This document shows, piece by piece, positions 35,715-50,030 of a stretch of 64,000 nucleotides of DNA. Source of the stretch: Bradyrhizobium ontarionense (GTDB taxonomy: Bacteria; Pseudomonadota; Alphaproteobacteria; Rhizobiales; Xanthobacteraceae); the NCBI RefSeq assembly GCF_021088345.1, contig NZ_CP088156.1, forward strand, positions 3,782,001 through 3,846,000. Reading direction: 5' to 3'. The position numbers and the translations under genes are program-made. Each line of letters starts with the position of its first letter. Positions within the stretch are counted from its first letter, which is position 1. A model generated the notes under the pieces. It saw nothing but the letters and a program-made list of their open reading frames with translations, was not told the DNA's origin and did not search any database.

Positions 35715-36559
<845 letters not shown>

Positions 36560-36563
<4 letters not shown>

Positions 36564-37606
36564 TTGTATTTCGCCTTTGCGGCCGCAAGGAAGCTCGGGT
36601 CGACGATGTCCTCGTATTTCATTTCGGGGATATCCGTCCCCTTGCGATACCACGGCTTGGCACCGCGCGCGTAGGACGCCTTGTCGATGCTGCCGTCATA
36701 GGCCCAGGTGGATGTGTCGAAGCCGAGCTCGGCGCTGACCGCATCGGGATCGATCCCGGCGAAGTACTTCGGCGCCACCAGCGCCTGCACCTCGGCCACT
36801 GGCGTGGCCTTCACCCAGGCCATGGCGCGGTAGATGGCATTGACGACCGCCTGCACCAGCGCCTTGTCCTGTTCGACGGTGTCCGCCAGCGCGTAGATGA
36901 CGAGCACCGGGACCGTGCCGCCGAAATCCTTTTCGAAGATGCCGGGCTTCGAGGTGTCGTAGATCACCTTGCCAAAACCCTTCTTCTCGATCTCGACGAT
37001 CCAGCTCGGCGGCGCCATGATGGCGTCGAACTGTTTGGTCTGCAGCGATGGAAACATGGTGTTGGGTCCGCCGCCCGCGACCCAGTTCACTCTGTCGCCG
37101 AGGCCGCGCGACTCGAACACATAGGTGCCGTAGACCCAGGTGCCGGAGCCGATCGCGGTGGCGGCGACGACCGGCTTCGCGCCGTCGGTGCGCTTGTAGG
37201 CCGCGAGCTTTTCGACCGAGGTGAGGCCGCTCTCGTAGAGATCCTGGCGCACGACGATGTTGGCGTAGGAGCAGACCATCTCGGTCGCGAGCAGGATCTT
37301 GCACGGCTTGCCACGCGCCGTGAGCTGCAGCGGATGGCTGGCGTCGCCATGCGCGAACAGCGCCTGGTCGGCGGCGAGCGTCTGGCGGCCGAACGTGCCG
37401 GAGTTGCCGGTCAGAAGCTTGGAATCGAGTCCTTCGTCCTTGAAATAGCCCTTGAGCTCCGCAATCATGGAGATCGCATAGACCGGCGAGACCGGACCGA
37501 ACGCAACGGTCGCGGACTTGGTCTCGGCCCGCAGCCGACCCGGCAGCAGCGAGGTGCCCGCGAAGGCCGCGCCGGAAGCCAGCGCGTGGCGCCGTGTGAT
37601 CGTCAT
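36560..37606 (-). CDS. ABC transporter substrate-binding protein, NMT1/SsuA-like
   Basis: 348 residues. The N-terminus MTITRRHALASGAAFAGTSLLPGRLRA is a Tat-type signal with an Arg pair. The mature part has the NMT1-like GPVSPVYAISMIAELKGYFKDEGLD opening and NWVAGGGPNTMFPSLQTKQFDA. It would capture the substrate in the periplasm. First gene of the operon with the ATPase and permease. The preceding gene on the same strand is a CoA-transferase ending 50 bases upstream, so the whole set may be one transcript. Confidence 0.9.
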
Positions 37607-37655
37607 GAATTCCTCCCGCAGTTCTTATGTTTTCGACGGCGCGCGATCTAAGGGC

Positions 37656-38870
37656 TCACGAAGGCGATGGGAGAATCGTTCCGTCCTCCTCCAGCACGGC
37701 AACCTCATCGGGCAGCAGCCCGAGCTCGGCCAGGACGTCGCGCGTGTGCTCGCCGATCCCAGGCGGATCATAGCGGTTCGGCAGCCGCTGTCCGTCCAGC
37801 GACACCGGGAGCACCGGCGTCATGGCGCGGCGGCCGTCCGGCAGACGGATCTCGGTGAGGCCGCCCGACGCATTGAGATGCGGATCGTCGAACAGGTCGC
37901 CGGGTTTGTTGACCGGTGCGTAGGGCAGCTCGAGGCGCTCGAGCAGCGCGGCAAGATCATCCTTCGCCCATGTCTTGAAGATCGCGGCGATCTCGGGGAT
38001 CAGCCAGCCGCGATGGTCGACGCGGCCCTGGGCCGTGGCGAAGCGCGGATCGTCCAGCCATTCCGTGCGGTCGAAAGCACGGCAGAACGCCACCCACTGC
38101 TCCTCGCCAACGATGGTCACGAACAGCTTGGAGCCGTCGCTGGTGTCGAAGAGATCATAGACCGGCCACGGGCTGTCCTTGATCGAATACGGGATCGAGG
38201 GCTGGCCGGTGACAACCTCGTACATCATCGCCTGCGCCATCAGGAACACGTTGTTCTCGTACAGCGCGCTCTGCACGTAGCGCCCGCACCCGGTGCGCTG
38301 GCGCTCGGCGAGCGCAGCCTGGATCGCGATCACACCGAACATGCCGCCCATGATGTCGTTGACCGAGGCGCCGGCGCGCATCGGCCGATCCGGCAGGCCG
38401 GTCATGTAGGCGAGTCCGCCCATCATCTGCACGACCTCGTCGAGCGCGAGGCGGTTCTCGTAGGGGCCTGGAAGATACCCTTTCAGCGAGCAATAGATCA
38501 GCCGCGGCGCGAACGCCGCCACCTGCTCGTAGTCGAGCCCGATGCGCTTCATCAGTCCGGGACGGAAGTTCTCGATCAGCACGTCGCTGCGCGCGATCAG
38601 CCGGCGCGCCACGCTCTGGCCCTGCGGCGTCGACGTGTCGAGCGCGATGCTGCGCTTGTTGCGGCAGTAGGTCGCGAAAAAGCCGGCGGCCGGCCCTTTG
38701 AAAGTGCGCGTGCGATCGCCCTTGAGCGGCTCGACCTTGATCACGTCGGCGCCGAGATCGGCGAGGATGAGCCCGCAACTCGGCCCCATCACCATCTGGC
38801 TGAACTCGACCACGCGCACGCCCTCCAGCGGGCGAAGCGGGGCGTCGCGGTCTCCGGGCGCGTGCGTCAT
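37656..38870 (-). CDS. Family III CoA-transferase (CaiB/BaiF)
   Basis: 404 residues. LADLGADVIKVEPLKGDRTR, CRNKRSIALDTSTPQGQ, ENFRPGLMKRIGLDYE and the catalytic Asp144 (NRLALDEVVQMMGG) are all present. Its start overlaps the stop of the HMG-CoA-lyase-like gene upstream (ATGA at 38867-38870). A CoA-transferase coupled to this kind of lyase suggests a route in which a branched hydroxy-dicarboxylic acid is made into its CoA ester and then cleaved. Confidence 0.9.
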   Translation of the reverse strand: MTHAPGDRDAPLRPLEGVRVVEFSQMVMGPSCGLILADLGADVIKVEPLKGDRTRTFKGPAAGFFATYCRNKRSIALDTSTPQGQSVARRLIARSDVLIENFRPGLMKRIGLDYEQVAAFAPRLIYCSLKGYLPGPYENRLALDEVVQMMGGLAYMTGLPDRPMRAGASVNDIMGGMFGVIAIQAALAERQRTGCGRYVQSALYENNVFLMAQAMMYEVVTGQPSIPYSIKDSPWPVYDLFDTSDGSKLFVTIVGEEQWVAFCRAFDRTEWLDDPRFATAQGRVDHRGWLIPEIAAIFKTWAKDDLAALLERLELPYAPVNKPGDLFDDPHLNASGGLTEIRLPDGRRAMTPVLPVSLDGQRLPNRYDPPGIGEHTRDVLAELGLLPDEVAVLEEDGTILPSPS

Positions 38871-39802
38871 GCCGCTCTCCGCAGAACCTTGGGGATGCCG
38901 GCCTCGTGCAGATGGCCGGTCAGGTGCTTCGCGGCGATGTGGCGGGCAAGGATCTCACGCGTCTGCATCAACCGGTCGAGGTCGATCCCGGTCGACAGTC
39001 CCATCCGTTCAAGCATGAACACGAGATCCTCGGTGACGATGTTGCCGCGCGCGCCCGGCGCAAACGGACAGCCGCCGAGACCGGAGACGGCGGCATCGAA
39101 GCGGCGGATGCCGGCTTCGAGCCCGGCCACGGCATTGGCAAGACCAGCGCCGAGCGTATCGTGCAGATGCAGACGGAGCGTCACATCCGGCCCGACCTCG
39201 CATCGTACCGCCGAGACGATCTGCCTGACGAGCGTTGGCGTCGCATAGCCGACGGTGTCGGCCAGCCCGATCTCATCGGCCCCCGCCTCGGCGAAACGCC
39301 GCGCCAGATTGCACACGGCCGCCTCGCTGATGTCGCCTTCCAGCGAGCAGCCGAACGACGTCGAAATCGCGCCCATCAGCTGCGGCCTCTCGGCGGCCGG
39401 CCGGGCGTCGATCGCCGCGCGAACGGCGCGGAAGGCCTCGACCTGCTCATCGACCGTGCGGCGGACATTGGCGCGGTTGTGCGTCTCGCTCGCCGAGATC
39501 ACGAAATAGATGCTGTTGACGCCGGCTGCGATGGCGCGCTCGGCGCCCTTGAAATTCGGCACCAGCGCGCCGATCCTCTTGTCCTGATGAGACAGCGCAT
39601 GGGCCATCACCACATCGACATCGGCGAATTGCGGCACCACCTTCGGCGGCACGAAGGAGCCGGCATCGATCTCGCGCACGCCCGCGGCGGCAATGGCGTC
39701 GATCAGCGCGCACTTCGCCTCCGTTGGAACGAAGACGTCGAGGTTCTGCAGGCCGTCACGCGCCGCGACCTCGCAGATATGGATATCCGGTTCACGGACC
39801 AT
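38867..39802 (-). CDS. Hydroxymethylglutaryl-CoA lyase family protein
   Basis: About 311 residues of an alpha/beta TIM barrel. HMGL landmarks are Arg15 (ARDGLQN), the metal-binding His212 and His214 (LRLHLHDT) and the flexible-loop cysteine Cys245 (GLGGCPFAPGARGN). The enzyme cleaves HMG-CoA or a similar 3-hydroxyacyl-CoA into an acyl-CoA and a keto acid. The start at 39802 is preferred to 39823 because GGGGGAGGAG (39807-39816) lies just before it. It is divergent from a GntR-type regulator and coupled to the CoA-transferase downstream. Confidence 0.88.
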   Translation of the reverse strand: MVREPDIHICEVAARDGLQNLDVFVPTEAKCALIDAIAAAGVREIDAGSFVPPKVVPQFADVDVVMAHALSHQDKRIGALVPNFKGAERAIAAGVNSIYFVISASETHNRANVRRTVDEQVEAFRAVRAAIDARPAAERPQLMGAISTSFGCSLEGDISEAAVCNLARRFAEAGADEIGLADTVGYATPTLVRQIVSAVRCEVGPDVTLRLHLHDTLGAGLANAVAGLEAGIRRFDAAVSGLGGCPFAPGARGNIVTEDLVFMLERMGLSTGIDLDRLMQTREILARHIAAKHLTGHLHEAGIPKVLRRAA

Positions 39803-39828
39803 CGGCGCTCCTCCCCCGCTCATTTATC

Positions 39829-39858
39829 GATTGTACATTTTCAATATAAAGAACAATC
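39829..39858. promoter_or_regulatory. Probable operator for the GntR-type regulator
   Basis: GATTGT and ACAATC at the ends of a 30-base AT-rich stretch form an inverted repeat; the extended arms GATTGTACAT and AAGAACAATC match at eight of ten positions. It lies in the 98-base gap between the divergent lyase and regulator genes, the only AT-rich part of it. Confidence 0.5.
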
Positions 39859-39900
39859 TGCGCGACGATCTGTCAAGCCCAAAGAGGTTTCATCCGCGTC

Positions 39901-40809
39901 ATGACCGATTCGGACACATCTCCCTCCCCGGCCCGGACAGGCGCGACCGACCGGGCCGAGCACCTGGCCGGCCTGATCCTGGCGTTTGCGCGCCGCGAAG
40001 GCATGAAGGCGGGTGACCGCCTGATCGAGCAGAAGCTTGCCGATGCGCTCGACGTGTCGCGCGCACCGATCCGCCTTGGATTGAAGGCCCTGGAGGCGGC
40101 AGGGCTCGCACGCGGCGAGCCCAATCGCGGCTTCGTGCTGACCAAAAGTCCAACGAGCGGCGCGGCGCGACCGACGCTCGCGGCGGTCAGTCGCGCCGAG
40201 CAGGCCTATGCCGACATTGCCGCCGACGTTCTGGACCAGCGCATCGACGCCGACGTCACCGAGGCCGAGCTGATGCGTCGCTATGAGCTGAGCCGCACCG
40301 AGTTGCAGCGTCTGCTGGATCGCATCGCCGCCGAAGGCTGGATCGCGCGGTTGCCCGGCTACGGCTGGCGTTTCGCCGACACCGTGTCGAGCCCGGAAGT
40401 CCAGGCCCAGGCCGCGGCATTCCGCGCGGTTATCGAGCCAGCGGCGATCCTGCAGTCCGGTTTTCACCTGGAGCGGGAGATCATCGATCGGCTGCGCCAG
40501 CACCAGCAGCGTGTGCTCGGCGGCGAGCTCGACAAGATGACGATCGGCGAGGTCTATCAGTCCGGCTGCGAGTTTCATGAGGAGATCGCGCGCGGCGCGG
40601 GCAATCCGTTCTTCGTGGATTCGCTGCGGCGCGTGAACTCGATCCGCCGCCTGTTCGCCTATCGCAGCTTCGCTGACCGCGACGGCATGCGCCGGCACGT
40701 CAAGGAGCACCTGCGCCTGCTCGATCTGCTCGAAGCCGGACGCCATGCCGACGCCGCCGAGCTGATGCGGCGCCATCTGCAGCGGCCGCTGTCGTCACGC
40801 ATTTCTTAA
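39901..40809 (+). CDS. GntR-family regulator with two winged helices and an FCD-like domain
   Basis: 302 residues. Residues about 20-80 are a GntR winged helix (LIEQKLADALDVSRAPIRLGLKALEAAGL). Residues about 98-160 look like a second one (VTEAELMRRYELSRTELQRLLDRIAAEGWI). Residues about 165-295 are an FCD-like ligand domain (FRAVIEPAAILQSG, CEFHEEIARGAGNPFFVDSL, HVKEHLRLLDLLEAGRHADAAELM). Normal FadR-type proteins have one winged helix and about 230 residues. It is divergent from the lyase and CoA-transferase operon and probably senses their substrate. Confidence 0.82.
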   Translation: MTDSDTSPSPARTGATDRAEHLAGLILAFARREGMKAGDRLIEQKLADALDVSRAPIRLGLKALEAAGLARGEPNRGFVLTKSPTSGAARPTLAAVSRAEQAYADIAADVLDQRIDADVTEAELMRRYELSRTELQRLLDRIAAEGWIARLPGYGWRFADTVSSPEVQAQAAAFRAVIEPAAILQSGFHLEREIIDRLRQHQQRVLGGELDKMTIGEVYQSGCEFHEEIARGAGNPFFVDSLRRVNSIRRLFAYRSFADRDGMRRHVKEHLRLLDLLEAGRHADAAELMRRHLQRPLSSRIS

Positions 40810-41099
40810 GCCCATTTGTTGATCCTATGCCTTGAGCCCATGACGCCGCGCGTCCAACTACAGCAATTGGATTACAGTGCACTCAACTGACAGGAGAGGC
40901 GGAGGCTCGCCGAATGTGTATGGTCCGTCTTGCCCGCGTCGTTATGAATTCCCACCGCCGTTTGGCTGTGGGCGGTTCTACCTTGCGAGTTGCGCTGTTT
41001 TTGCATCTTCGTTTTCGATGAACGCTCTGGTTGCTTTCGTAGACTAATACTCTGCGTTCGGTTATTTCTTCATATTCGGCATTTCAAAAGGAAGCACTC

Positions 41100-41960
41100 A
41101 TGCGAAAGTTGTTTTCGTCGATCCTGTTTTTGTGCGTTGCGATGGTGGTCCTTGCCTCGACAGGGGCGCACGCGCAGGCGACGCGGACCTGGGTCTCCGG
41201 CGTCGGTGATGACGTCAACCCGTGCAGCCGCACGGCTCCCTGCAAGACGTTCGCCGGCGCAATTTCCAAGACGGCCGCCGGCGGTGAAATCGACGTGCTC
41301 GATCCCGGCGGGTTCGGCGCCGTGACAATCACCAAGTCCATCACGATCGATGGTGGGGGAACCCTGGCATCGGTCCTGGCGTCAGCGACCAACGGCATCA
41401 ACGTGAATGCCGGCGCATCCGACGTCATCATCCTGCGCAACCTGAGCATCAACGGCGCCGGCACGACCCTCGGCGTCAACGGCGTCAACTTCCTGGCCGG
41501 CCGAAAGCTCATCATCGAGAACTGCACGATCGAGAACTTCTCGCAAAGCGCCATTTCCATCACGCCGACCGGTGCTGCGCAGGCGGTGATCTCGGACTCG
41601 ACGCTCAAGGTGTCCGCGTTCGGCATCAAGATCTCGACCGCGAACGCGACCGACGCAGTCAGCGTGCTCGTGTCGAATACGAAGACCATTCTGAACAGCA
41701 ATGCCGGAGTATCCGCCACGGTCCCCGCCGGAAAGCCGGGTATGGGCGTCTTCCTCGATCGCCTGATTTCCGAGTTCAACAGCACCGGCGTTCTGGCGAG
41801 CGGCAGCGGCGCCACTGTCACTGTGGGAAATTCCATCATCCAGGGCAACACCAGCGGTGTGGTCCAGACCGGCGGCGGCGCGGTCTCGTCGTTCAAGACC
41901 AACGAGATCAGCAACAACGGCGCTGACGGCACGCCGCTTACGGGAATCAGCCTGAACTAA
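41100..41960 (+). CDS. Secreted right-handed beta-helix protein
   Basis: 286 residues. A signal peptide (MRKLFSSILFLCVAMVVLASTGAHA) is followed by TRTWVSGVGDDVNPCSRTAPCKTFAGAISKTAAG, whose two cysteines probably form a disulfide, then about eight coils of a parallel beta helix (for example DVIILRNLSINGAG, RKLIIENCTIENFSQSAISI). It resembles pectate-lyase-like fold proteins without an obvious catalytic site. AAGGAAG precedes the ATG. The 290-base gap upstream is relatively AT-rich and holds no gene I can support. Function may be surface binding of polysaccharide. Confidence 0.75.
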   Translation: MRKLFSSILFLCVAMVVLASTGAHAQATRTWVSGVGDDVNPCSRTAPCKTFAGAISKTAAGGEIDVLDPGGFGAVTITKSITIDGGGTLASVLASATNGINVNAGASDVIILRNLSINGAGTTLGVNGVNFLAGRKLIIENCTIENFSQSAISITPTGAAQAVISDSTLKVSAFGIKISTANATDAVSVLVSNTKTILNSNAGVSATVPAGKPGMGVFLDRLISEFNSTGVLASGSGATVTVGNSIIQGNTSGVVQTGGGAVSSFKTNEISNNGADGTPLTGISLN

Positions 41961-41977
41961 CGGCTTAGCCGTGAAGT

Positions 41978-42005
41978 CCCAGACGTTGGCCGACCTGCGT
42001 CTGGG
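41978..42005. terminator. Hairpin after the beta-helix gene
   Basis: CCCAGACG and CGTCTGGG form a perfect eight-base stem with a 12-base loop, 18 bases after the stop. No T-tract follows. It may serve as terminator for two convergent genes. Confidence 0.35.
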
Positions 42006-42121
42006 CGTCAGTCAGACGTCGGTGCGGCGGTCGTGCGGCCCGCCTGCGCCTCGTCCTCAAACGATCCTTCTCTCGAAAGCATGATCGGCGTCCCCGATGG
42101 CGGCGCCGTCAGAGGCTCTGC

Positions 42122-44629
42122 TCACGCCGAGCGGGCAGCGCCCTTGCGGGGCGGACGTGAACCCGTCGTGCCCCGCGCGGTGCGACGCTGGCGCGGCGGC
42201 GCCGTCCGGCGCTGGGGCGGCGCAGACAGCGGTTCGGAGCTCTCGGCGTGGAGCTCAGGCCGGCCGCGCAGCACCTTGCCGATCTGTCCGATCGTCAGCG
42301 ACGGCAGGAACTTGTCGTCCTTGACGATGTCCATCGCCTGATCCGGCGTGAGCGTGCCGCGGCGCGTCACGTGACGCTCGCCTTCGCCGACCGTCCATGC
42401 GCTTTCCCAGAGCACGGCAAGGAGATGGGCGCCGTCCTGCATCACGCCGATGGTCTGCCGGCCGAACAGCGACCACAGCTTGGACGACGCGGCATTGCCG
42501 CCCTTGCCGATGTCGACATAGGCCTGCACGATCTTGGCCGGGGGCACGGCCTTGAAGGTGTTGCGCATCAGCCGGATGGTCGCGATCGCCGCCTCGCGAC
42601 CCGAGCCGACCAACTCGGACTGCTGCACCTTCGCCGTCTGCTTCAGCCCGTCGAGGATGGCCACCCTGTTCTGAAACACCATGGCGTCCTCATAGGCGCT
42701 GTGGACACCCGAACCCAACGGCTGCAGCTTGGTCTGGCCCGCCTTCTTGCCCTTGCTGAAGACGTGCTTCACGGGCCGCTCGGGATCGCCATCATGGAGG
42801 TACGAGATGTGCAGCGGCTGGCAGGAATCGCCGACATAATGCGCCAGCACGCCGGCGGCACAGACGAACTCCTCGGCCTTGCCGGCCTTGGCGTAGTCGC
42901 ACATCTTGTCGAAGATCTGCCAGACCCGGAACGGCAGCAGGCCACGGCGATCCTCCTTGATCTTGTCGCCGCTCAGGATGTCGGTCACGTTGTCGTAGAA
43001 GCGCTCCCAGATGTCCGGATCGACATTGGCATCATCCTTGGTCAGATCGAGCAGCGTCTTGCCGCCGGGTCCGGGCTGATCCATGTCGGCGAAATGATTG
43101 CTGCCCTCGAACTTGCGGGCAAAGCCCTGCTTGCCGACACGCGGCTTCCAGAAGAAGTCGGGCACATCAGCCATCGGCACGAAATCCTCGCTGCCCATGC
43201 CCTTGAACTCGCCCTGCTTCAATTTTGCATCATCATGGCTGATGATCTGCAGATTGTTGTCCATCAGCGCCTTCAACTTCGGCAGCCGGTTCGACAACGC
43301 GCCGAGCGCGCGCGAGGCGATGGAGAAGTGCCCGAGCGCGCCCCACGTGTCCGGCTGGTCGATGTTCCAGTCCTGCAGGAAATCCACTTCCAGCATGGCG
43401 CAGACGCGCGACAGCAGGGTCGCGAGGACAAAGCTCTGCGGCGGCGCCTTGTCTGTCGAGCGGAACATGTTGCGGCCCCATTGCATCGCCAGCGGCATGA
43501 ACTCGCTGGCGTCGGGTTCGTGCTTTTTGCTCGTGCCGTTGCGATGCGCGCCATTCCTGCCGCCATTGCGATGCGCTCGCCCATCATCGTCAATCCGCTC
43601 GGCCGGTTCCAGTAGCCACAGGGCACCGGAATCGCCAGGAAAAGTCGCAAATCCGGGAGGGCGCTCCTTGCTGCCGCGCCTCTGCGTGCGCGCGCCGATC
43701 ATGAGGTCCGCGACATATTCGAAACCGCCCTGCTTCTTGTAGCGGTAGAACAGCCCGTGGATCTCGCCGAGCATGGTGCCACCGGCCGCGCCGATGCCGC
43801 GGACATAGCAGCCGACCAGCGACAGCGAGAGATTGATGCCGGAAAAATCCGCCATCGGCCCGACCCGCCCGAGCCCCTTGATCGCCGTCGTCCAGCGCGA
43901 GATGTCGTCGATCTCGACCATGCCGACATCGAGATTGACGAACGTGTCGCTGACCACGAAGTTCGGGTACAGCGCCGAGAACGGCAGCCGCGTGAGCTGC
44001 TTGTCCGAACTCTCGCCCACCCGCTCCTCGGCGCCGGCGATGATGGCCGAGACCACCTCGCCTTCGTCGCCGGTGACGTGACGGTTGGTGAGCGCGTAGA
44101 CGAGATGGCCGTCGCTGACGAGCGCGCCGATGGTCGCGACATATTGCTGGCCCTGCACGGTCGCGATCAGCGGATTGCCCGGACCGATATTGTTGATGGG
44201 GTAGACGATCCGGTTGGGCGCCTCGATCGGCGTGACCTGTTCCTTCGGCGCTTCGACCACGCAGATCGGAACGCGCGAGCCATCGGGCATGAAGACGGTG
44301 CTCGGGATCAGTTCGCCCGGCCGTGACAGCTCCTTGGGATCCTGCCACTCGGACACGAACACCAGAATGCAGGGCCACGAATAGGAACGCACCTGTGAAT
44401 TATCGAGCCGGCGCACGCCCGCGCCGTGGCGCTTGACCTTGTCGTGCGGCCAGCTGTCGCTGCTGCGAATCCGATAGCGGCCGAGCGCGGTCGCAACGAC
44501 ATTGGGATGACGCATCAGATGAACGTGGAACAGTTCGCGCGCATCGACGAGATTCTTCAGCGACAAATGGGCGAAATCATCCTCGGCCTGGAATGCGGAG
44601 AGGTCGATCTGCGGCTGTGGGCGCACCAT
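42122..44629 (-). CDS. Trypsin-like protease fused to S1/P1-type zinc phosphoesterase
   Basis: 835 residues, no signal peptide or membrane segment. Residues about 130-345 look like a trypsin-fold protease with the triad His184 (ALTNRHVTG), Asp234 (FVNLDVGMVEI) and Ser334 (TFPGDSGALW). Residues about 429-660 carry the S1/P1 nuclease ligand set: Trp429 and His434 (TWGALGHFSIA), Asp488, His512 (SNHFADMD), His597, Asp601 and His607 (LAHYVGDSCQPLH), His643, and Glu647 (HSAYEDAM) where P1 has Asp and phospholipase C has Glu. In that family Trp1 must be the free N-terminus to bind zinc; here it is internal. The tail is Arg/Pro-rich. GGAGGAAA precedes the ATG. Function unknown. Confidence 0.78.
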   Translation of the reverse strand: MVRPQPQIDLSAFQAEDDFAHLSLKNLVDARELFHVHLMRHPNVVATALGRYRIRSSDSWPHDKVKRHGAGVRRLDNSQVRSYSWPCILVFVSEWQDPKELSRPGELIPSTVFMPDGSRVPICVVEAPKEQVTPIEAPNRIVYPINNIGPGNPLIATVQGQQYVATIGALVSDGHLVYALTNRHVTGDEGEVVSAIIAGAEERVGESSDKQLTRLPFSALYPNFVVSDTFVNLDVGMVEIDDISRWTTAIKGLGRVGPMADFSGINLSLSLVGCYVRGIGAAGGTMLGEIHGLFYRYKKQGGFEYVADLMIGARTQRRGSKERPPGFATFPGDSGALWLLEPAERIDDDGRAHRNGGRNGAHRNGTSKKHEPDASEFMPLAMQWGRNMFRSTDKAPPQSFVLATLLSRVCAMLEVDFLQDWNIDQPDTWGALGHFSIASRALGALSNRLPKLKALMDNNLQIISHDDAKLKQGEFKGMGSEDFVPMADVPDFFWKPRVGKQGFARKFEGSNHFADMDQPGPGGKTLLDLTKDDANVDPDIWERFYDNVTDILSGDKIKEDRRGLLPFRVWQIFDKMCDYAKAGKAEEFVCAAGVLAHYVGDSCQPLHISYLHDGDPERPVKHVFSKGKKAGQTKLQPLGSGVHSAYEDAMVFQNRVAILDGLKQTAKVQQSELVGSGREAAIATIRLMRNTFKAVPPAKIVQAYVDIGKGGNAASSKLWSLFGRQTIGVMQDGAHLLAVLWESAWTVGEGERHVTRRGTLTPDQAMDIVKDDKFLPSLTIGQIGKVLRGRPELHAESSEPLSAPPQRRTAPPRQRRTARGTTGSRPPRKGAARSA

Positions 44630-44924
44630 GACTTTCCTCCAAATGACATGTCAGTAAAAATTGAAAATGCCGGTAGCGATGACGCCGGCAATAACAACGA
44701 TGCGGTGCCGGCGCGTGGCTCGAACCGCGGCGCAACAAGGCGCCGCCGGCGGAATTGCATCATGGATCGCGCACAACTGCAAGACGACACCTCACGATGC
44801 GGCGGGCCGCGTGCTTGCGCCCGTCGCCGCGACGTCTGCGGGGCAGCCGCCTCCGCCCCGCTCCTGCCACCGCCGACGAGGTGACTTACGCCGCCCGCTC
44901 GCGTGCGGCAGGACGCAATCGCCG

Positions 44925-45566
44925 TCAGCCGCAAGCTGCCGCGTGCTGCGCCGCCATATCGACATCCGCGGCCGTGACACGCTGGAACGCAGAACGCGAT
45001 GTGATGCGCTCGGCATAGCGCGCGAACACGTCCTTGCGCGGCACGACCCCGAACATCATGGTCCAGTTGAGGGCGACGCCCCAGAGCACGTCGGCGGCGG
45101 TCATGCGCTCGCCCAGCAGATAGGGCCCCTTGGCCAGTTGCTGCTCGAGCGCGCCCAGCATCGTGTCGTAGTCGGCGTAGGGCGACTGCGTGACCGGGGC
45201 CGGCTCGCGCTTCATGAAACGGTCGATCACGGCCGGCTCGAACGATGAACCGTAATAGGCGATCCACCGCAGGTAAGGCCCGCGCATGGCATCGTCGAGC
45301 GCCGGCGTCAGCCCCGCGTTTGGAAACAGATCGGCGAGATAGATGAAGATCGCGACCTGCTCGGTCACGATCTGGCCGCGATGGCCGATCGCCGGCACCT
45401 TGCCGAGCGGATTGATTGCGAGGTAGTCGGCCTTGCGCTGCTCGCCCGCCTTCATGTTCAGGACATGCAGATCATGGGGCGCGCCGAGCTCCTCCAGCAG
45501 GATGCGTGCGCCGGCGGCGCGGGTCTGCGGCGAATAATACAGCGTGATGCGGTCGTCGGTGGTCAT
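44925..45566 (-). CDS. Glutathione S-transferase family protein
   Basis: 213 residues. The N-terminal thioredoxin-like half has LYYSPQTRAAGARILLEELGAP, the cis-proline segment INPLGKVPAI and the glutathione-contacting EQVAIFIYLADLFP. The helical C-terminal half has GPYLLGERMTAADVLWG. It conjugates or reduces electrophiles with glutathione. GGGAGGAGA precedes the ATG. It is divergent from a WYL-domain regulator, with a perfect palindrome between them. The 295 bases downstream (44630-44924) hold only the promoter region of the protease-phosphoesterase gene. Confidence 0.88.
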   Translation of the reverse strand: MTTDDRITLYYSPQTRAAGARILLEELGAPHDLHVLNMKAGEQRKADYLAINPLGKVPAIGHRGQIVTEQVAIFIYLADLFPNAGLTPALDDAMRGPYLRWIAYYGSSFEPAVIDRFMKREPAPVTQSPYADYDTMLGALEQQLAKGPYLLGERMTAADVLWGVALNWTMMFGVVPRKDVFARYAERITSRSAFQRVTAADVDMAAQHAAACG

Positions 45567-45612
45567 GATGGTCTCCTCCCATGGTCGCTGCGATGCCGGG
45601 CTTGTCGCACAC

Positions 45613-45639
45613 CATACCTGACATCCCGTGTCAGGTATG
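45613..45639. promoter_or_regulatory. Probable operator of the WYL regulator
   Basis: CATACCTGACA and TGTCAGGTATG form a perfect 11-base inverted repeat with a five-base spacer. It ends 12 bases before the regulator start and lies 47 bases before the divergent GST start. Confidence 0.75.
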
Positions 45640-45651
45640 TTTTAAGGGGGC

Positions 45652-46632
45652 ATGCGTGCGAGCCGGCTCTTATCCATCCTCACCACGTTGCAGGCCAAGG
45701 GCCAAGTGACGGCGCCCGAGCTTGCGGAGGCCTGCGAGGTCTCGGTGCGCACGATCTATCGCGACGTCGACGCGCTCGCGGCGGCGGGCATTCCTGTCTA
45801 CGCCGAGCGTGGCGCCGAGGGCGGGTTCCGCCTGCTCGACGGCTATCGCGTGCGGCTCAACGGACTGTCGCCCGCGGAAACCGACGCGCTGTTCATGGCG
45901 GGGCTGCCCGGCGCGGCCGCCGCGCTCGGCCTCGACGGCATGAATGCGGCGCAGACCAAGCTCGTCGCGGCGCTGCCGCAGAGCCTGCGCGCCAACGCCA
46001 GCCGCATGCAGGCGCGCTTCCATCTCGATGCGCCCGGCTGGTTCGGCGAGGCCGAGGAACCACAGCATCTGCGCCTGATCGCCGATGCGCTGCTCGCCGA
46101 TCTCTTGATCGACATCCGCTATCAGACGTGGCGCGCCGAGAAGCGCCGCCGCGTGGCGCCGCTCGGCCTCGTGCTGAAAGGCGGCAGCTGGTATCTCGCC
46201 GGCCAGGTCGAGCGCAGCGTGCGCACCTACCGCGTCGCCCGCGTGCTCGACTGCGCCGTGACGGATGAGACCTTCACGCGGCCCGCCGATTTCGATCTCG
46301 CCGCACACTGGCGCGCCGCGACCGAACGGCTGGAAGCGGAGCTGCATCCGAACGAGGCGACGGTGCGGCTGTCGCCGCTCGGCGTGAAGCTCCTGGAGGC
46401 GCTGAGCCAGCCTTATGTCAGGACGCGCACGTGCCTTGCCGACGAGAGCGATGCCGACGGCTGGCGCGTCGCGACGATGCCGGTCGGCACCACATTGTGG
46501 CACGCGGCGTCCGAATTGCTGCGCTTCGGCGCCGAGGTTGAGGTGCTGGCCCCACCCGAGCTGCGCGCGAAGATGGCCGAGGTCTCGCAGGCGATGGCGG
46601 AACGTTACGGCGGCTCTGCGACGACGCTATGA
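45652..46632 (+). CDS. YafY-type HTH and WYL-domain regulator
   Basis: 326 residues. The N-terminal helix-turn-helix is VTAPELAEACEVSVRTIYRDVDALAAAGIPVYAERG, followed by GGFRLLDGYRVRLNGLSP. A WYL domain is visible around GLVLKGGSWYLAGQVERSVRTYRVARV, and a C-terminal WCX-like extension follows. WYL domains bind nucleic acid or small ligands. AAGGGGG lies just before the ATG. It is divergent from the GST gene and has its probable operator in the gap. Confidence 0.88.
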   Translation: MRASRLLSILTTLQAKGQVTAPELAEACEVSVRTIYRDVDALAAAGIPVYAERGAEGGFRLLDGYRVRLNGLSPAETDALFMAGLPGAAAALGLDGMNAAQTKLVAALPQSLRANASRMQARFHLDAPGWFGEAEEPQHLRLIADALLADLLIDIRYQTWRAEKRRRVAPLGLVLKGGSWYLAGQVERSVRTYRVARVLDCAVTDETFTRPADFDLAAHWRAATERLEAELHPNEATVRLSPLGVKLLEALSQPYVRTRTCLADESDADGWRVATMPVGTTLWHAASELLRFGAEVEVLAPPELRAKMAEVSQAMAERYGGSATTL

Positions 46633-46652
46633 ATTGCAGACAACTGCTCCAT

Positions 46653-46738
46653 CCCCGTCATTGCGAGCGCAGCGAAGCAATCCAGACTGTCCCAGCGGGG
46701 GAATTCTGGATTGCTTCGCTGAGCTCGCAATGACGGGG
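46653..46738. repeat. Palindromic repeat between convergent genes
   Basis: CCCCGTCATTGCGAGC and GCTCGCAATGACGGGG at the ends, and GCGAAGCAATCCAGA and TCTGGATTGCTTCGC inside, make an 86-base near-perfect hairpin. This is a common Bradyrhizobium intergenic repeat. It sits between the convergent WYL and TPM genes and could act as a two-way terminator. Confidence 0.8.
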
Positions 46739-46795
46739 TGAGAGCTGCGCAAGGCAACATCGAGCCGGGATTGAGCAGGTCGGCAGAACGACGAG

Positions 46796-47293
46796 CTACA
46801 GCACCACCGGCGCGTCTGGTAGTTCGTTGATATCGCTGGCGTGCGGCGGATAGTACTTGGCCAGTTCGCCGGACACGGCGGCGATGCCCTGCATGACGCC
46901 CTGCTCGAAGCGCCCCTGACGGAACTCGGCCTCCATCGCCTGGCAGATCGCTTCCCAGCGCGCCGCGCCGACCTTTGCATGGATGCCGCGGTCGGCGATG
47001 ATCTCGACGTCGCGATCAGCCAACAGCAGGTAGATCAGGACGCCGTTGTTGTGCGCGGTGTCCCAGATCCGCAAGTTGGAAAAGACGTCGAGCGCCCGCT
47101 CGCGCGGCAACTGGTTGCGCCACAGCGGCGGGCCGTCGAGCGCGCCCTCGACGACGAAGCGCAGCTGGCCGGCATGCGTGCGCTCGCTGTCCTTGATCGC
47201 CTGTTCGATGCGCGCCAGTACGTCAGGCGTGAAGATGCGCTTCAGCTTCCAGTGGTGATGCAGAAGGTGCCGGCCGATCCGCTTGATGCCCAT
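46796..47293 (-). CDS. TPM-domain protein, short
   Basis: About 165 residues of a TPM (YgcG-type) domain without signal peptide: FTPDVLARIEQAIKDSERTHAGQLRFVVEG, then NNGVLIYLLLADRDVEIIADRGIHAKV. TPM domains occur in thylakoid and membrane-associated proteins, some with phosphatase activity. The ATG at 47293 has AGGG upstream. A GTG at 47314 that overlaps the previous stop is an alternative. It is the last gene of a LemA/TPM/TPM operon. Confidence 0.82.
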   Translation of the reverse strand: MGIKRIGRHLLHHHWKLKRIFTPDVLARIEQAIKDSERTHAGQLRFVVEGALDGPPLWRNQLPRERALDVFSNLRIWDTAHNNGVLIYLLLADRDVEIIADRGIHAKVGAARWEAICQAMEAEFRQGRFEQGVMQGIAAVSGELAKYYPPHASDINELPDAPVVL

Positions 47294-47310
47294 GGTCGCG
47301 CGCCCTGTCC

Positions 47311-48210
47311 TCACCAGCTGCCCGAGGCGCCGCCGCCGCCGAAGCTGCCGCCGCCGCCGGAAAAGCTGCCGCTGTCGCTCGAACTGCCGCTGCTCCAGCC
47401 GCCCGAGGACGAGCCGCTCGACCAGCCGCCGCGGCGGCCGCCCGACGACGGCATCGTCGAGGACAAGCCGCCGGCGATGAACGCGATGACGAGGCCGGCC
47501 ACGCTGGACAGCAGCGCCAGCGATATCGATCCGACCAGGACCCAGGTCAGAATCCCGATCGCGCCGCCGGTGGCCAGCGAGCCGAGCAGCCGGCCGAACA
47601 GGGTGCGCAGCACGCCACCTAGGAAGATCGCTCCGAAGAAGGCGACGGGCGCGAACGAGGAGATGGAATCGATGTCGAGATCGACGCCATGCGATGCCTG
47701 CGGCTGCGGCACCGGCAGGGCCTCGCCATTGATCACGCCGATGATGCGGTCGACGCCGGCGTCGATGCCGCCGGCGAAATCGCCGCTGCGGAATTTCGGC
47801 GTGATGACCTCGTCGATGATGCGGCGCGCGGTCACGTCGGTCAGGCTGCCTTCGAGCCCGTAGCCGACCTCGATGCGCAGCTTGCGGTCGTTCTTGGCGA
47901 CCACCAGCAGCGCGCCGTCGTCGACCTTCTTGCGGCCGATCTTCCAGGCTTCGGCAACGCGGATCGAGAATTGCTCGATCGTCTCCGGCTGCGTCGTCGG
48001 CACGATCAGCACCGCGACCTGGCTGCCCTTGCGGGTCTCCAGGTCCTTCAGCTTCTGGCTGAGACCCGCGATGTCGGAGGACGACAGCGTACCGGTCTGG
48101 TCGACGACGCGGCCGGTGAGCTGCGGCACCGCGACGTCGGCAAGCGCGATCGCTGCCAGGCAGACGAACAGCGTCGCAAGCAGGGCCTTGACGACCGACA
48201 GCGCGCGCAA
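47311..48210 (-). CDS. TPM-domain membrane protein (YgcG-like)
   Basis: 299 residues. A signal peptide precedes the TPM domain (VVDQTGTLSSSDIAGLSQKLKDLETRKGSQVAVLIVPTT, VDDGALLVVAKNDRKLRIEVGYGLEG). Membrane segments lie around residues 180-245, and the tail is the Gly/Ser-rich GGGGSFGGGGASGSW that is typical of this family. The start is TTG, with GGAG upstream. LemA and YgcG-type genes are found together in many bacteria and are thought to work at the envelope. Confidence 0.88.
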   Translation of the reverse strand: MRALSVVKALLATLFVCLAAIALADVAVPQLTGRVVDQTGTLSSSDIAGLSQKLKDLETRKGSQVAVLIVPTTQPETIEQFSIRVAEAWKIGRKKVDDGALLVVAKNDRKLRIEVGYGLEGSLTDVTARRIIDEVITPKFRSGDFAGGIDAGVDRIIGVINGEALPVPQPQASHGVDLDIDSISSFAPVAFFGAIFLGGVLRTLFGRLLGSLATGGAIGILTWVLVGSISLALLSSVAGLVIAFIAGGLSSTMPSSGGRRGGWSSGSSSGGWSSGSSSDSGSFSGGGGSFGGGGASGSW

Positions 48211-48224
48211 GGCAGGATGCTCCG

Positions 48225-48836
48225 CTATTTCGACGGCGCAGGCGCGGGCACGTTGAAGTCGACCTTCGGAGCGACCGAGATCTCGCGCTCGTTCTCGACC
48301 GTGAAGTTCGCCTTCTCCTTGTAGCCGAACGCCATCGCGGTCAGGTTGTTCGGGAAGGTGCGGATGCCGACGTTATACTCCTGCACCGACTTGATGTAGC
48401 GGTTGCGCGCCACCGTGATGCGGTTCTCGGTGCCTTCGAGCTGGGACATCAGGTCGCGGAACAGCGCGTCGGATTTCAGCTGCGGATAGTTCTCGGTGAC
48501 GACCAGCAGCCGCGACAGCGCGCCGGTCAGCTCGCTCTGGGCGGCCTGGAACTTCTGCAGCGCGGCGGGATCGTTGACGACGTCGGGCGTGGCCTGGACG
48601 CTGCCGACCTTGGCGCGAGCATTGGTCACGCCGAGCAGCACGTCCTTCTCCTGCTGGGCAAAACCCTTGACGCTGTTGACGAGGTTGGGAACCAGATCGG
48701 CGCGGCGCTGATACTGGTTGACGACCTCGGACCAGGCCGCCTTGACCTGCTCATCATTGGTCTGGATGGCGTTGTAGCCGCAATTGGTCAGGCTCAGCGT
48801 CATGAGCGCCGCCAGCACGGTCAGCAATCTCCGCAT
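48225..48836 (-). CDS. lemA: LemA family lipoprotein
   Basis: 203 residues. The lipobox LTNCGYN follows a short hydrophobic N-terminus. The LemA core is visible: VKAAWSEVVNQYQRRADLVPNLVNSVKGFAQQEKDVL, then NRITVARNRYIKSVQEYNVGIRTFPNNLTAMAFGY. It is predicted to be an envelope protein with a long three-helix bundle. First gene of the operon with two TPM proteins; the gap to the next is 14 bases. AGAAGGGGA precedes the ATG. Confidence 0.93.
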   Translation of the reverse strand: MRRLLTVLAALMTLSLTNCGYNAIQTNDEQVKAAWSEVVNQYQRRADLVPNLVNSVKGFAQQEKDVLLGVTNARAKVGSVQATPDVVNDPAALQKFQAAQSELTGALSRLLVVTENYPQLKSDALFRDLMSQLEGTENRITVARNRYIKSVQEYNVGIRTFPNNLTAMAFGYKEKANFTVENEREISVAPKVDFNVPAPAPSK

Positions 48837-49013
48837 CGCGCGTCCCCTTCTCCCGGTTGTGCCGCCTCGTCACAGCACAGCTTGGGCGGCGACGCAATGA
48901 CGGCACGCGGCCGCCGGACATGTGTCTCGGCGGCCGTGTGGTGGGTTCAGCGAGAGTTCCGGTCAGGCCTTGCGGATGCGAGTCGTTCGCCCCGCATGCG
49001 TTTGCGGCTGTGC

Positions 49014-50030
49014 TCAGCTGCCGTTGCGGTCGCGCAGCTGGGTCACGAACATGTCCTGCCAGCTCGCCGGCTTGACCTTGATCGAGCCGACGCCGTGCAT
49101 GAACTCGGCGATCTTCAGCACGCCTTCGGGCGTCGCGGAGAACCAGGTGTCCTTGTCCTGCAGCATCTCCTGCACCTCCTCCTTGGTGGTCTTAACCTTG
49201 GCGGTGCGGGCATAGATCTCGGCGGCCGCGGCCTTGTCATTGGCGATCAGCGTGCAGGCCTCGTCGAGCGCATCCAGGAACGCCTGAACGACCTTCGGAT
49301 TGGCGTCGACGAAACGCTTGGGCGCGAACACGACGTCCATGGTCAGCCGTCCGAGCACGTCGGCCGAATTGGCGACGCGATGGATCTTGGAATCCTTCAG
49401 CTCGATGTAGGAGAACGGCGGCGAGGTGAAATGCGCCGTGATCTCGGTCTTGCCCGAGATCAGCGCCGCGACCGCTTCCGGATGCGGCAGGCCGACCGTC
49501 ATCGGATCGAGCTTGGCATAGTTCTCCTTGCCGAATTCGTGCGCCACCATCATCTGCAGCATGACCGCCGACAGCGAGGTCTTGATGCCGGGCAGCGCAA
49601 TCTTGTCACCGGATTTGAGATCCTTCAGCGACTTGATCTCGGGATTATTGCTGTTCATCCACAACGAGGTCGAGCTCAGCCCGCTGACGCCGACGACCTC
49701 GACCGCCGGAATGCCCTTGGCCTTGGCCCACAGCGTGATGAAGCCGGGCGCGCCGGTGCCGGCGATGTCGAGCGAGCCGGCCATCATCGCATCGTTGATG
49801 ATGTTGCCGCCATCGAGCAGCAGCCAGCTCACCTTGAGCGCACCGAGCCCGGCCTTCTCGGCCTGCTTCTCCATCAGCTTCTGATCCTCCATCACGATCA
49901 GCGGCAGATAGAGGATGCCGTAGCCCTTGGAGAGCCTGAGCTCCTTGACCTCGGCCTGCGACGCGCTGGTGGCGCCGAGCAGCGTGGCGAGGCCGATCGC
50001 GGCCGCCGCGAATGATTTGCTCCAGGACAT
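49014..50030 (-). CDS. ABC transporter substrate-binding protein, NitT/TauT
   Basis: 338 residues. A signal peptide (FAAAAIGLATLLGATSASQA) precedes an NMT1-like domain: LRLSKGYGILYLPLIVMED, then LLLDGGNIINDAMMAGSLDIAGTGAPGFITLWAKAKGI. It belongs to the family for nitrate, sulfonate, taurine and thiamine precursors; the ligand is not clear. It is the last gene of the leftward operon ATPase-permease-binding protein. AAGGAGA precedes the ATG. Confidence 0.9.
   Translation of the reverse strand: MSWSKSFAAAAIGLATLLGATSASQAEVKELRLSKGYGILYLPLIVMEDQKLMEKQAEKAGLGALKVSWLLLDGGNIINDAMMAGSLDIAGTGAPGFITLWAKAKGIPAVEVVGVSGLSSTSLWMNSNNPEIKSLKDLKSGDKIALPGIKTSLSAVMLQMMVAHEFGKENYAKLDPMTVGLPHPEAVAALISGKTEITAHFTSPPFSYIELKDSKIHRVANSADVLGRLTMDVVFAPKRFVDANPKVVQAFLDALDEACTLIANDKAAAAEIYARTAKVKTTKEEVQEMLQDKDTWFSATPEGVLKIAEFMHGVGSIKVKPASWQDMFVTQLRDRNGS

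Follow-up and report, generated by a model that had tools for sequence, protein, structure and literature searches.

We found that one gene of Bradyrhizobium ontarionense joins in a single chain a NAL1-type trypsin-fold protease and a zinc phosphoesterase of the phospholipase C/P1-nuclease fold, with Trp429, the counterpart of the amino-terminal Trp of such zinc enzymes, lying internally just behind the protease. An unusual requirement is common to zinc phospholipases C and S1/P1 nucleases: their amino-terminal Trp is itself a metal ligand. In a widespread family this Trp is invariant yet lies inside the chain, directly preceded by a protease whose triad is intact, and from this follows a sharp prediction: a cut before Trp429 would create a metal ligand. 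We consider it rather probable that the protein starts out as a zymogen and that its own protease matures it at this point. The gene is present as a single copy in the 8.44-Mb one-contig genome and lies within the 64-kb stretch of DNA analysed here as a whole (the window). The fusion of a protease with a zinc enzyme had been proposed in the initial annotation and was borne out, both domains being seen by alignment and by structural comparison (Table 1).

Table 1. Features of the fusion gene and its product (window coordinates; fractions give conservation in the 154-sequence set)
Feature	Position	Strand	Remark
Whole gene, 835 aa	42122..44629	minus	
Ribosome-binding site GGAGG, 6 nt 5' of ATG	44636..44640	minus	read from sequence
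NAL1-type trypsin-fold protease domain, residues ~20-415	43385..44572	minus	
Catalytic His184 (TNRHV)	44078..44080	minus	154/154; aligns with NAL1
Catalytic Asp234	43928..43930	minus	154/154
Catalytic Ser334 (PGDSG)	43628..43630	minus	153/154
Linker, residues 416-428, ends D-T before Trp429; proposed cleavage segment	43346..43384	minus	
Phospholipase C/P1-nuclease-fold domain, residues 429-755	42365..43345	minus	
Trp429, equivalent of Trp1 in PLC/S1/P1 (WGALGH)	43343..43345	minus	154/154
Metal ligand His434	43328..43330	minus	154/154
Metal ligand Asp488	43166..43168	minus	154/154
Metal ligand His512	43094..43096	minus	154/154
HxxxDxxxxxH metal-ligand motif (His597, Asp601, His607)	42809..42841	minus	154/154; aligned to ENDO2 and SmNuc1
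Metal ligands His643 and Glu647	42689..42703	minus	154/154
Disordered Arg/Pro-rich C-terminal tail, residues ~798-835	42125..42238	minus	pLDDT under 50 for 797-835

The protease domain has both a NAL1-type fold and a His-Asp-Ser triad, as judged by alignment, structural comparison and two predicted models. Pfam Nal1_C scored the window protein at 22.5 bits against a cut-off of 26.1, and at 26.5 bits with its neighbours in frame. Rice NARROW LEAF 1 (NAL1; PDB 8pn2, 7y77) is a trypsin-fold protease like that of the fusion, but it is a plant protein with no zinc phosphoesterase behind the protease, judged from the solved constructs listed; the structural match to NAL1 stops at about residue 425, just ahead of Trp429. 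Stand-alone NAL1-like proteases lacking the zinc domain occur in other Bradyrhizobium species (L082:6227-7240, L083:6144-7151), and a motif scan of two loci with such proteases found no S1/P1-type neighbour.

The zinc domain has the helical fold of the phospholipase C/P1-nuclease superfamily; the fold prediction that the initial annotation had named as a check matches the zinc enzymes. By sequence, all nine metal-ligand positions are filled (W429, H434, D488, H512, H597, D601, H607, H643 and E647). The Pfam profile of S1/P1 nucleases (PF02265) scored the window protein at 15.4 bits, below its gathering cut-off of 29.5, and that of zinc-dependent phospholipase C (PF00882) at 20 bits, below its cut-off of 26.8; at E <= 0.01 the two matched 18 and 19, respectively, of 28 sequences, and PF00882 is listed in the database for a few relatives. 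NCBIfam yielded no match to the window protein. Both in this protein and in an Archangium homologue, the Pfam S1-P1 match starts at the Trp in question. Glu as the ninth ligand is a trait of phospholipase C, known from the B. cereus enzyme, and Glu647 points towards the phospholipases C, while the Trp-x4-His spacing points towards S1/P1. Structural matches to phospholipase C and S1 tie, within 1 Z unit. SmNuc1, in the available text on it, has Asp at the ninth place, where the fusion has Glu.

Structural alignment paired residue 429 with the first residue of B. cereus phospholipase C (1ah7), with residue 21 of S1 nuclease and with residue 27 of SmNuc1, each of them the N-terminal Trp of its enzyme, in agreement with the earlier proposal that Trp429 stands in place of Trp1. 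A second model, of the approximately 40%-identical Archangium homologue, aligned residue 395 with 22 of S1 and 28 of SmNuc1; this puts its W394 on 21 and 27, the register seen for the window protein. Among clostridial phospholipase C rows, 428 or 429 fell on residue 1; the register of Listeria PC-PLC is unequal to that of the fusion (427 on 10), and the Archangium model against B. cereus rows starts with 393 on 4, four residues off. In these models, the register is not uniform across phospholipase C-like rows. The ENDO2 alignment contains a weak segment that pairs Trp with Trp1 at –2.5 bits, which is not significant.

Conservation was assessed in 154 sequences, window protein included, defined as those of 263 aligned rows with a residue at five key positions; some of the 154 may repeat each other, and the remaining 109 rows lack at least one key position. 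Trp429, the eight side-chain ligands, His184 and Asp234 are kept throughout, and Ser334 in all sequences but one, so the triad and the zinc ligands named in the initial annotation, Glu647 at the ninth place among them, stood up across the family. Of all 263 rows, 228 have W at position 429 and 34 have a gap there; a single row, the fragment P0200, has L. The incomplete rows that depart (P0122, P0136, P0146, P0192, P0198, P0200 and P0218) are taken for fragments, misalignments or sequence errors. The expectation that homologues would retain both Trp429 and the triad held for the former, with no complete sequence lacking it among the rows listed of 1141 hits, and failed once for the latter: in metagenomic row P0041, Phe replaces Ser334 while Trp429 is retained.

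The two-domain order that the initial annotation had suggested looking for in other genomes was found at 24 genome loci; triad, Trp and linker are jointly conserved in the 154-sequence set. Identity matrices of the protease and zinc domains run parallel (Mantel r 0.87, 0 of 2000 permutations as high; 23 of 48 sequences, near-identical rows removed and L048 left out). Such parallel divergence makes an old origin of the fusion probable. A search for a stand-alone zinc domain gave 271 hits; among the 120 listed, those short proteins whose starts were inspected seem to be truncated within the two-domain protein, and no stand-alone zinc domain with a signal peptide was seen by eye.

The domains are joined by a linker of 13 residues, and the segment from 406 to 434 contains no insertion or deletion in any of the 154 sequences. 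Mean entropy over the linker (1.55 bits) is close to that of the protease (1.59) and of the zinc domain (1.64), and lower than the 2.1–2.8 bits of three other variable stretches (24 of 48 rows kept after removal of near-identical ones); the linker is constrained both in its length and in its sequence. In the predicted model of the window protein, residues 422–429 have pLDDT below 50. In the Archangium model, confidence drops only slightly over the linker (block means 79 and 69), so this distant homologue does not reproduce the disorder. The residue preceding Trp429 is Thr in 137 of the 154 sequences, Tyr in 14 and Arg, Val or Phe in one each, and the one before that is mostly Asp (135) or Glu (13), which gives the dipeptides DT, EY, NY, ER, QY and others. 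Because these residues vary, there is no single cleavage motif. In the same set, residue 428 (Thr/Tyr) covaries with 386 (Arg/Gly, beside the protease WG; P0001 numbering). This is a possible specificity link, but it is confounded by clade and was for that reason set aside as evidence.

Instead of a signal peptide ending just before Trp1, 428 residues stand ahead of Trp429. N-terminal hydrophobicity by a crude test was 0.67 for P0001 versus 2.01 for a secreted S1/P1 control, and over the first 60 residues it stayed below 2.0 in 119 of 120 rows. By the same measure the family shows no sign of a signal peptide or of secretion, as the initial annotation had it. In S1 nuclease, according to the available text, the signal sequence ends before its Trp, where the fusion has the protease. 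The usual solution is also seen in Mesorhizobium sophorae, in which a conventional S1/P1 nuclease (L007:12350-13210; PF02265, E 5e-48) lies about 40 bp downstream of a fusion homologue: a hydrophobic signal-like N-terminus runs up to its WGDRGH Trp, whereas the fusion family has a protease ahead of the Trp.

The metal cluster of S1 and of SmNuc1 is bound by the N-terminal Trp through its main chain, as stated in the available parts of their descriptions. Listeria produces PC-PLC as a proenzyme without activity, from which Mpl removes the propeptide; one residue before W1 is reported to abolish its activity, a statement made from earlier work (ref. 51 therein), and its W1F variant stays active (available text of PMC10576769). 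Zinc phospholipases C (B. cereus 1ah7, Listeria PC-PLC 8cqm) differ from the fusion in being secreted, with a short propeptide and a protease encoded by a separate gene. Since a single residue before Trp1 is reported to silence Listeria PC-PLC, the uncut domain should be off, by analogy with this enzyme, S1 and SmNuc1. We propose that in the uncut protein the zinc phosphoesterase would be inactive, as Trp429, whose amino terminus should be free to bind a metal, is still peptide-bonded. A signal would activate or cluster the NAL1-type protease, which would cut the fixed linker between 428 and 429, either in its own chain or in an adjacent subunit; trans cleavage within an oligomer is as possible as cis. 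The new amino terminus would complete the metal site, and the activated domain would act in the cytosol as a phosphoester hydrolase, with membrane phospholipids as the likeliest substrate and nucleic acids as the alternative. The cleavage, the activation, its trigger, the substrate and a role in defence are steps that we infer. The protease fold ends a few residues from the proposed cut site, and alphavirus capsid proteins provide a precedent for cis-cleavage just behind a chymotrypsin fold.

No description of this protease–zinc enzyme fusion was found in a literature search of titles and abstract starts. The nearest published idea is the trans-acting trypsin-MBL pair of Hachiman, AVAST, Lamassu and DRT, whose trypsin-activated pro-nucleases in defence are described in the available text of PMC12799240. 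The idea shared with the fusion is that a trypsin-like protease turns on a dormant hydrolase. In those pairs the MBL-fold nuclease is encoded by a separate gene and activation removes a gate, while the fusion is one chain and its activation would create a metal ligand. 'Phospholipase' effectors are cited in the accessible part of PMC13236601. The PADLOC-DB model PDLC03017, 'trypsin-like', matches both domains of the window protein (E 7e-33) and 28 of the 28 sequences given, window protein included; the similarity is distant (best E 2e-49), and the model states neither system nor mechanism.

The fusion gene stands alone at its locus. Upstream, a glutathione S-transferase gene lies on the same strand across a gap of 295 bp, in the place where a trypsin-MBL pair would have its MBL nuclease, and the gene is convergent with a beta-helix gene. 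Five window neighbours were scanned (glutathione S-transferase, WYL regulator, beta-helix protein, GntR regulator and HMGL-like lyase); there is no NLR-like ATPase, CARD protein or gasdermin gene among them, as a CARD-NLR gasdermin-type system would have. The convergent neighbour (window 41100-41960) has a signal-like N-terminus and a right-handed beta-helix (PF13229), and the GC content of its stretch is lower, 0.606. No tRNA genes were found in the 64-kb window and no Rfam families at 36000-50000. The Arg/Pro-rich basic tail of the fusion protein (last ~38 residues) has no conserved positions across the family.

The nearest named homologues are from Bradyrhizobium. The 24 genome loci come from Alphaproteobacteria, Gammaproteobacteria, Cupriavidus, Ktedonobacter, myxobacteria, Acidobacteria, Ignavibacteria and others. 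Presence is patchy: the gene was detected in 26 of 195 genomes of the genus, its own included (one, G150, with a weak partial match only, and two, G070 and G119, with pieces only), and at E <= 1e-20 its own genome alone was positive in a sample of 398 from the phylum, with at most two candidates scored per genome among the genomes listed. At 11 loci of relatives with neighbouring glutathione S-transferase and WYL regulator genes, the fusion gene is absent within 1.5 kb on either side, and around two 75–77% identical copies no other of ten window genes lies within 1.5 kb. Several copies are broken by splits or in-frame stops (L017, L023, L047, L048; G083, G070, G119), as expected of a costly accessory gene. 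A conserved operon partner was rejected, no neighbour family being common to more than three loci (24 genome loci and the window).

A defence island around the gene was likewise rejected. The scan covered 90 of 171 called proteins within 5 kb at 21 of 24 loci, with the near-duplicates L011, L015 and L017 left out, and no recurrent defence family was found among these 90 neighbours. They matched 28 PADLOC families; among the 25 listed, two (both PycC) had two members and the others one, the matches thus being mostly singletons, AbiEii, HEC-01B, mad3, LeoA and LeoBC among them. Next to the copy on plasmid p1 of Sphingobium fuliginis (L046) are genes for ParDE, HipA and an annotated anti-phage dGTPase, as well as transposon genes; no such ParDE/dGTPase/HipA-like group accompanies the other three plasmid copies. 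A phage origin was rejected, with zero matches in 50,697 phage records.

Invariance of Trp429 is by itself no proof of a zymogen, since other Trp residues of the zinc domain are invariant too. HET-C domains are predicted to have the same fold; for them the available text of PMC3482391 lists His and acidic residues as conserved but no Trp, so perhaps not every member of this fold has a free N-terminal Trp. Both points speak for a two-enzyme scaffold, in which the zinc domain would work uncut, the indole or carbonyl of Trp429 would account for its conservation, and the targets of the protease would be other proteins. We regard such a scaffold as unlikely, given an invariant Trp429 at the edge of a low-confidence segment and in register with Trp1 of B. 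cereus phospholipase C, S1 and SmNuc1, a linker constrained in length and sequence, and the reported silencing of Listeria PC-PLC by an extra residue before W1 (available text of PMC10576769). The harm might also be done by proteolysis of cell proteins, with the zinc domain as a regulator or ligand-binding sensor of the protease; trypsin-like peptidases are indeed named as effectors in other bacterial conflict systems (available text of PMC10907252). Nine metal positions kept in every sequence of the set are seemingly more than a binding domain needs, and this arrangement strikes us as very improbable.

The scanned neighbours, mostly unrelated to defence, and the lack of a match in phage records would also suit an ordinary metabolic or scavenging phosphoesterase that is matured by its own protease and plays no part in conflict. 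We give this little credence in view of the patchy presence, the different neighbours even of 75–77% identical copies, the several broken copies, the lack of any sign of secretion and the PADLOC match. Patchy presence, changing neighbours, broken copies and the PADLOC match fit an accessory gene that is mobile and costly to keep, as a defence gene would be. Of the conflict role suggested in the initial annotation, the PADLOC match and the distribution are in favour, while gene neighbourhoods add little. With no signal peptide, a patchy spread, no conserved partner gene and the PADLOC match, the protein is probably a zymogen of the cytosol that acts by itself and may serve in phage defence.

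More speculatively, the gene could be a one-gene death switch, whose cytosolic NAL1-type protease would sense a threat, cut its own fixed linker and create the amino-terminal metal ligand of the fused phospholipase or nuclease; we hold this as a tentative possibility. If the self-maturation proposed here is true, the zymogen would be switched on by building a missing catalytic ligand and not by opening a gate, and the family would parallel, within one polypeptide, the protease-plus-effector pairs known from bacterial immunity. It would add an all-in-one design to the protease-activated bacterial effectors and would hint at a role for NAL1-type proteases in bacteria.
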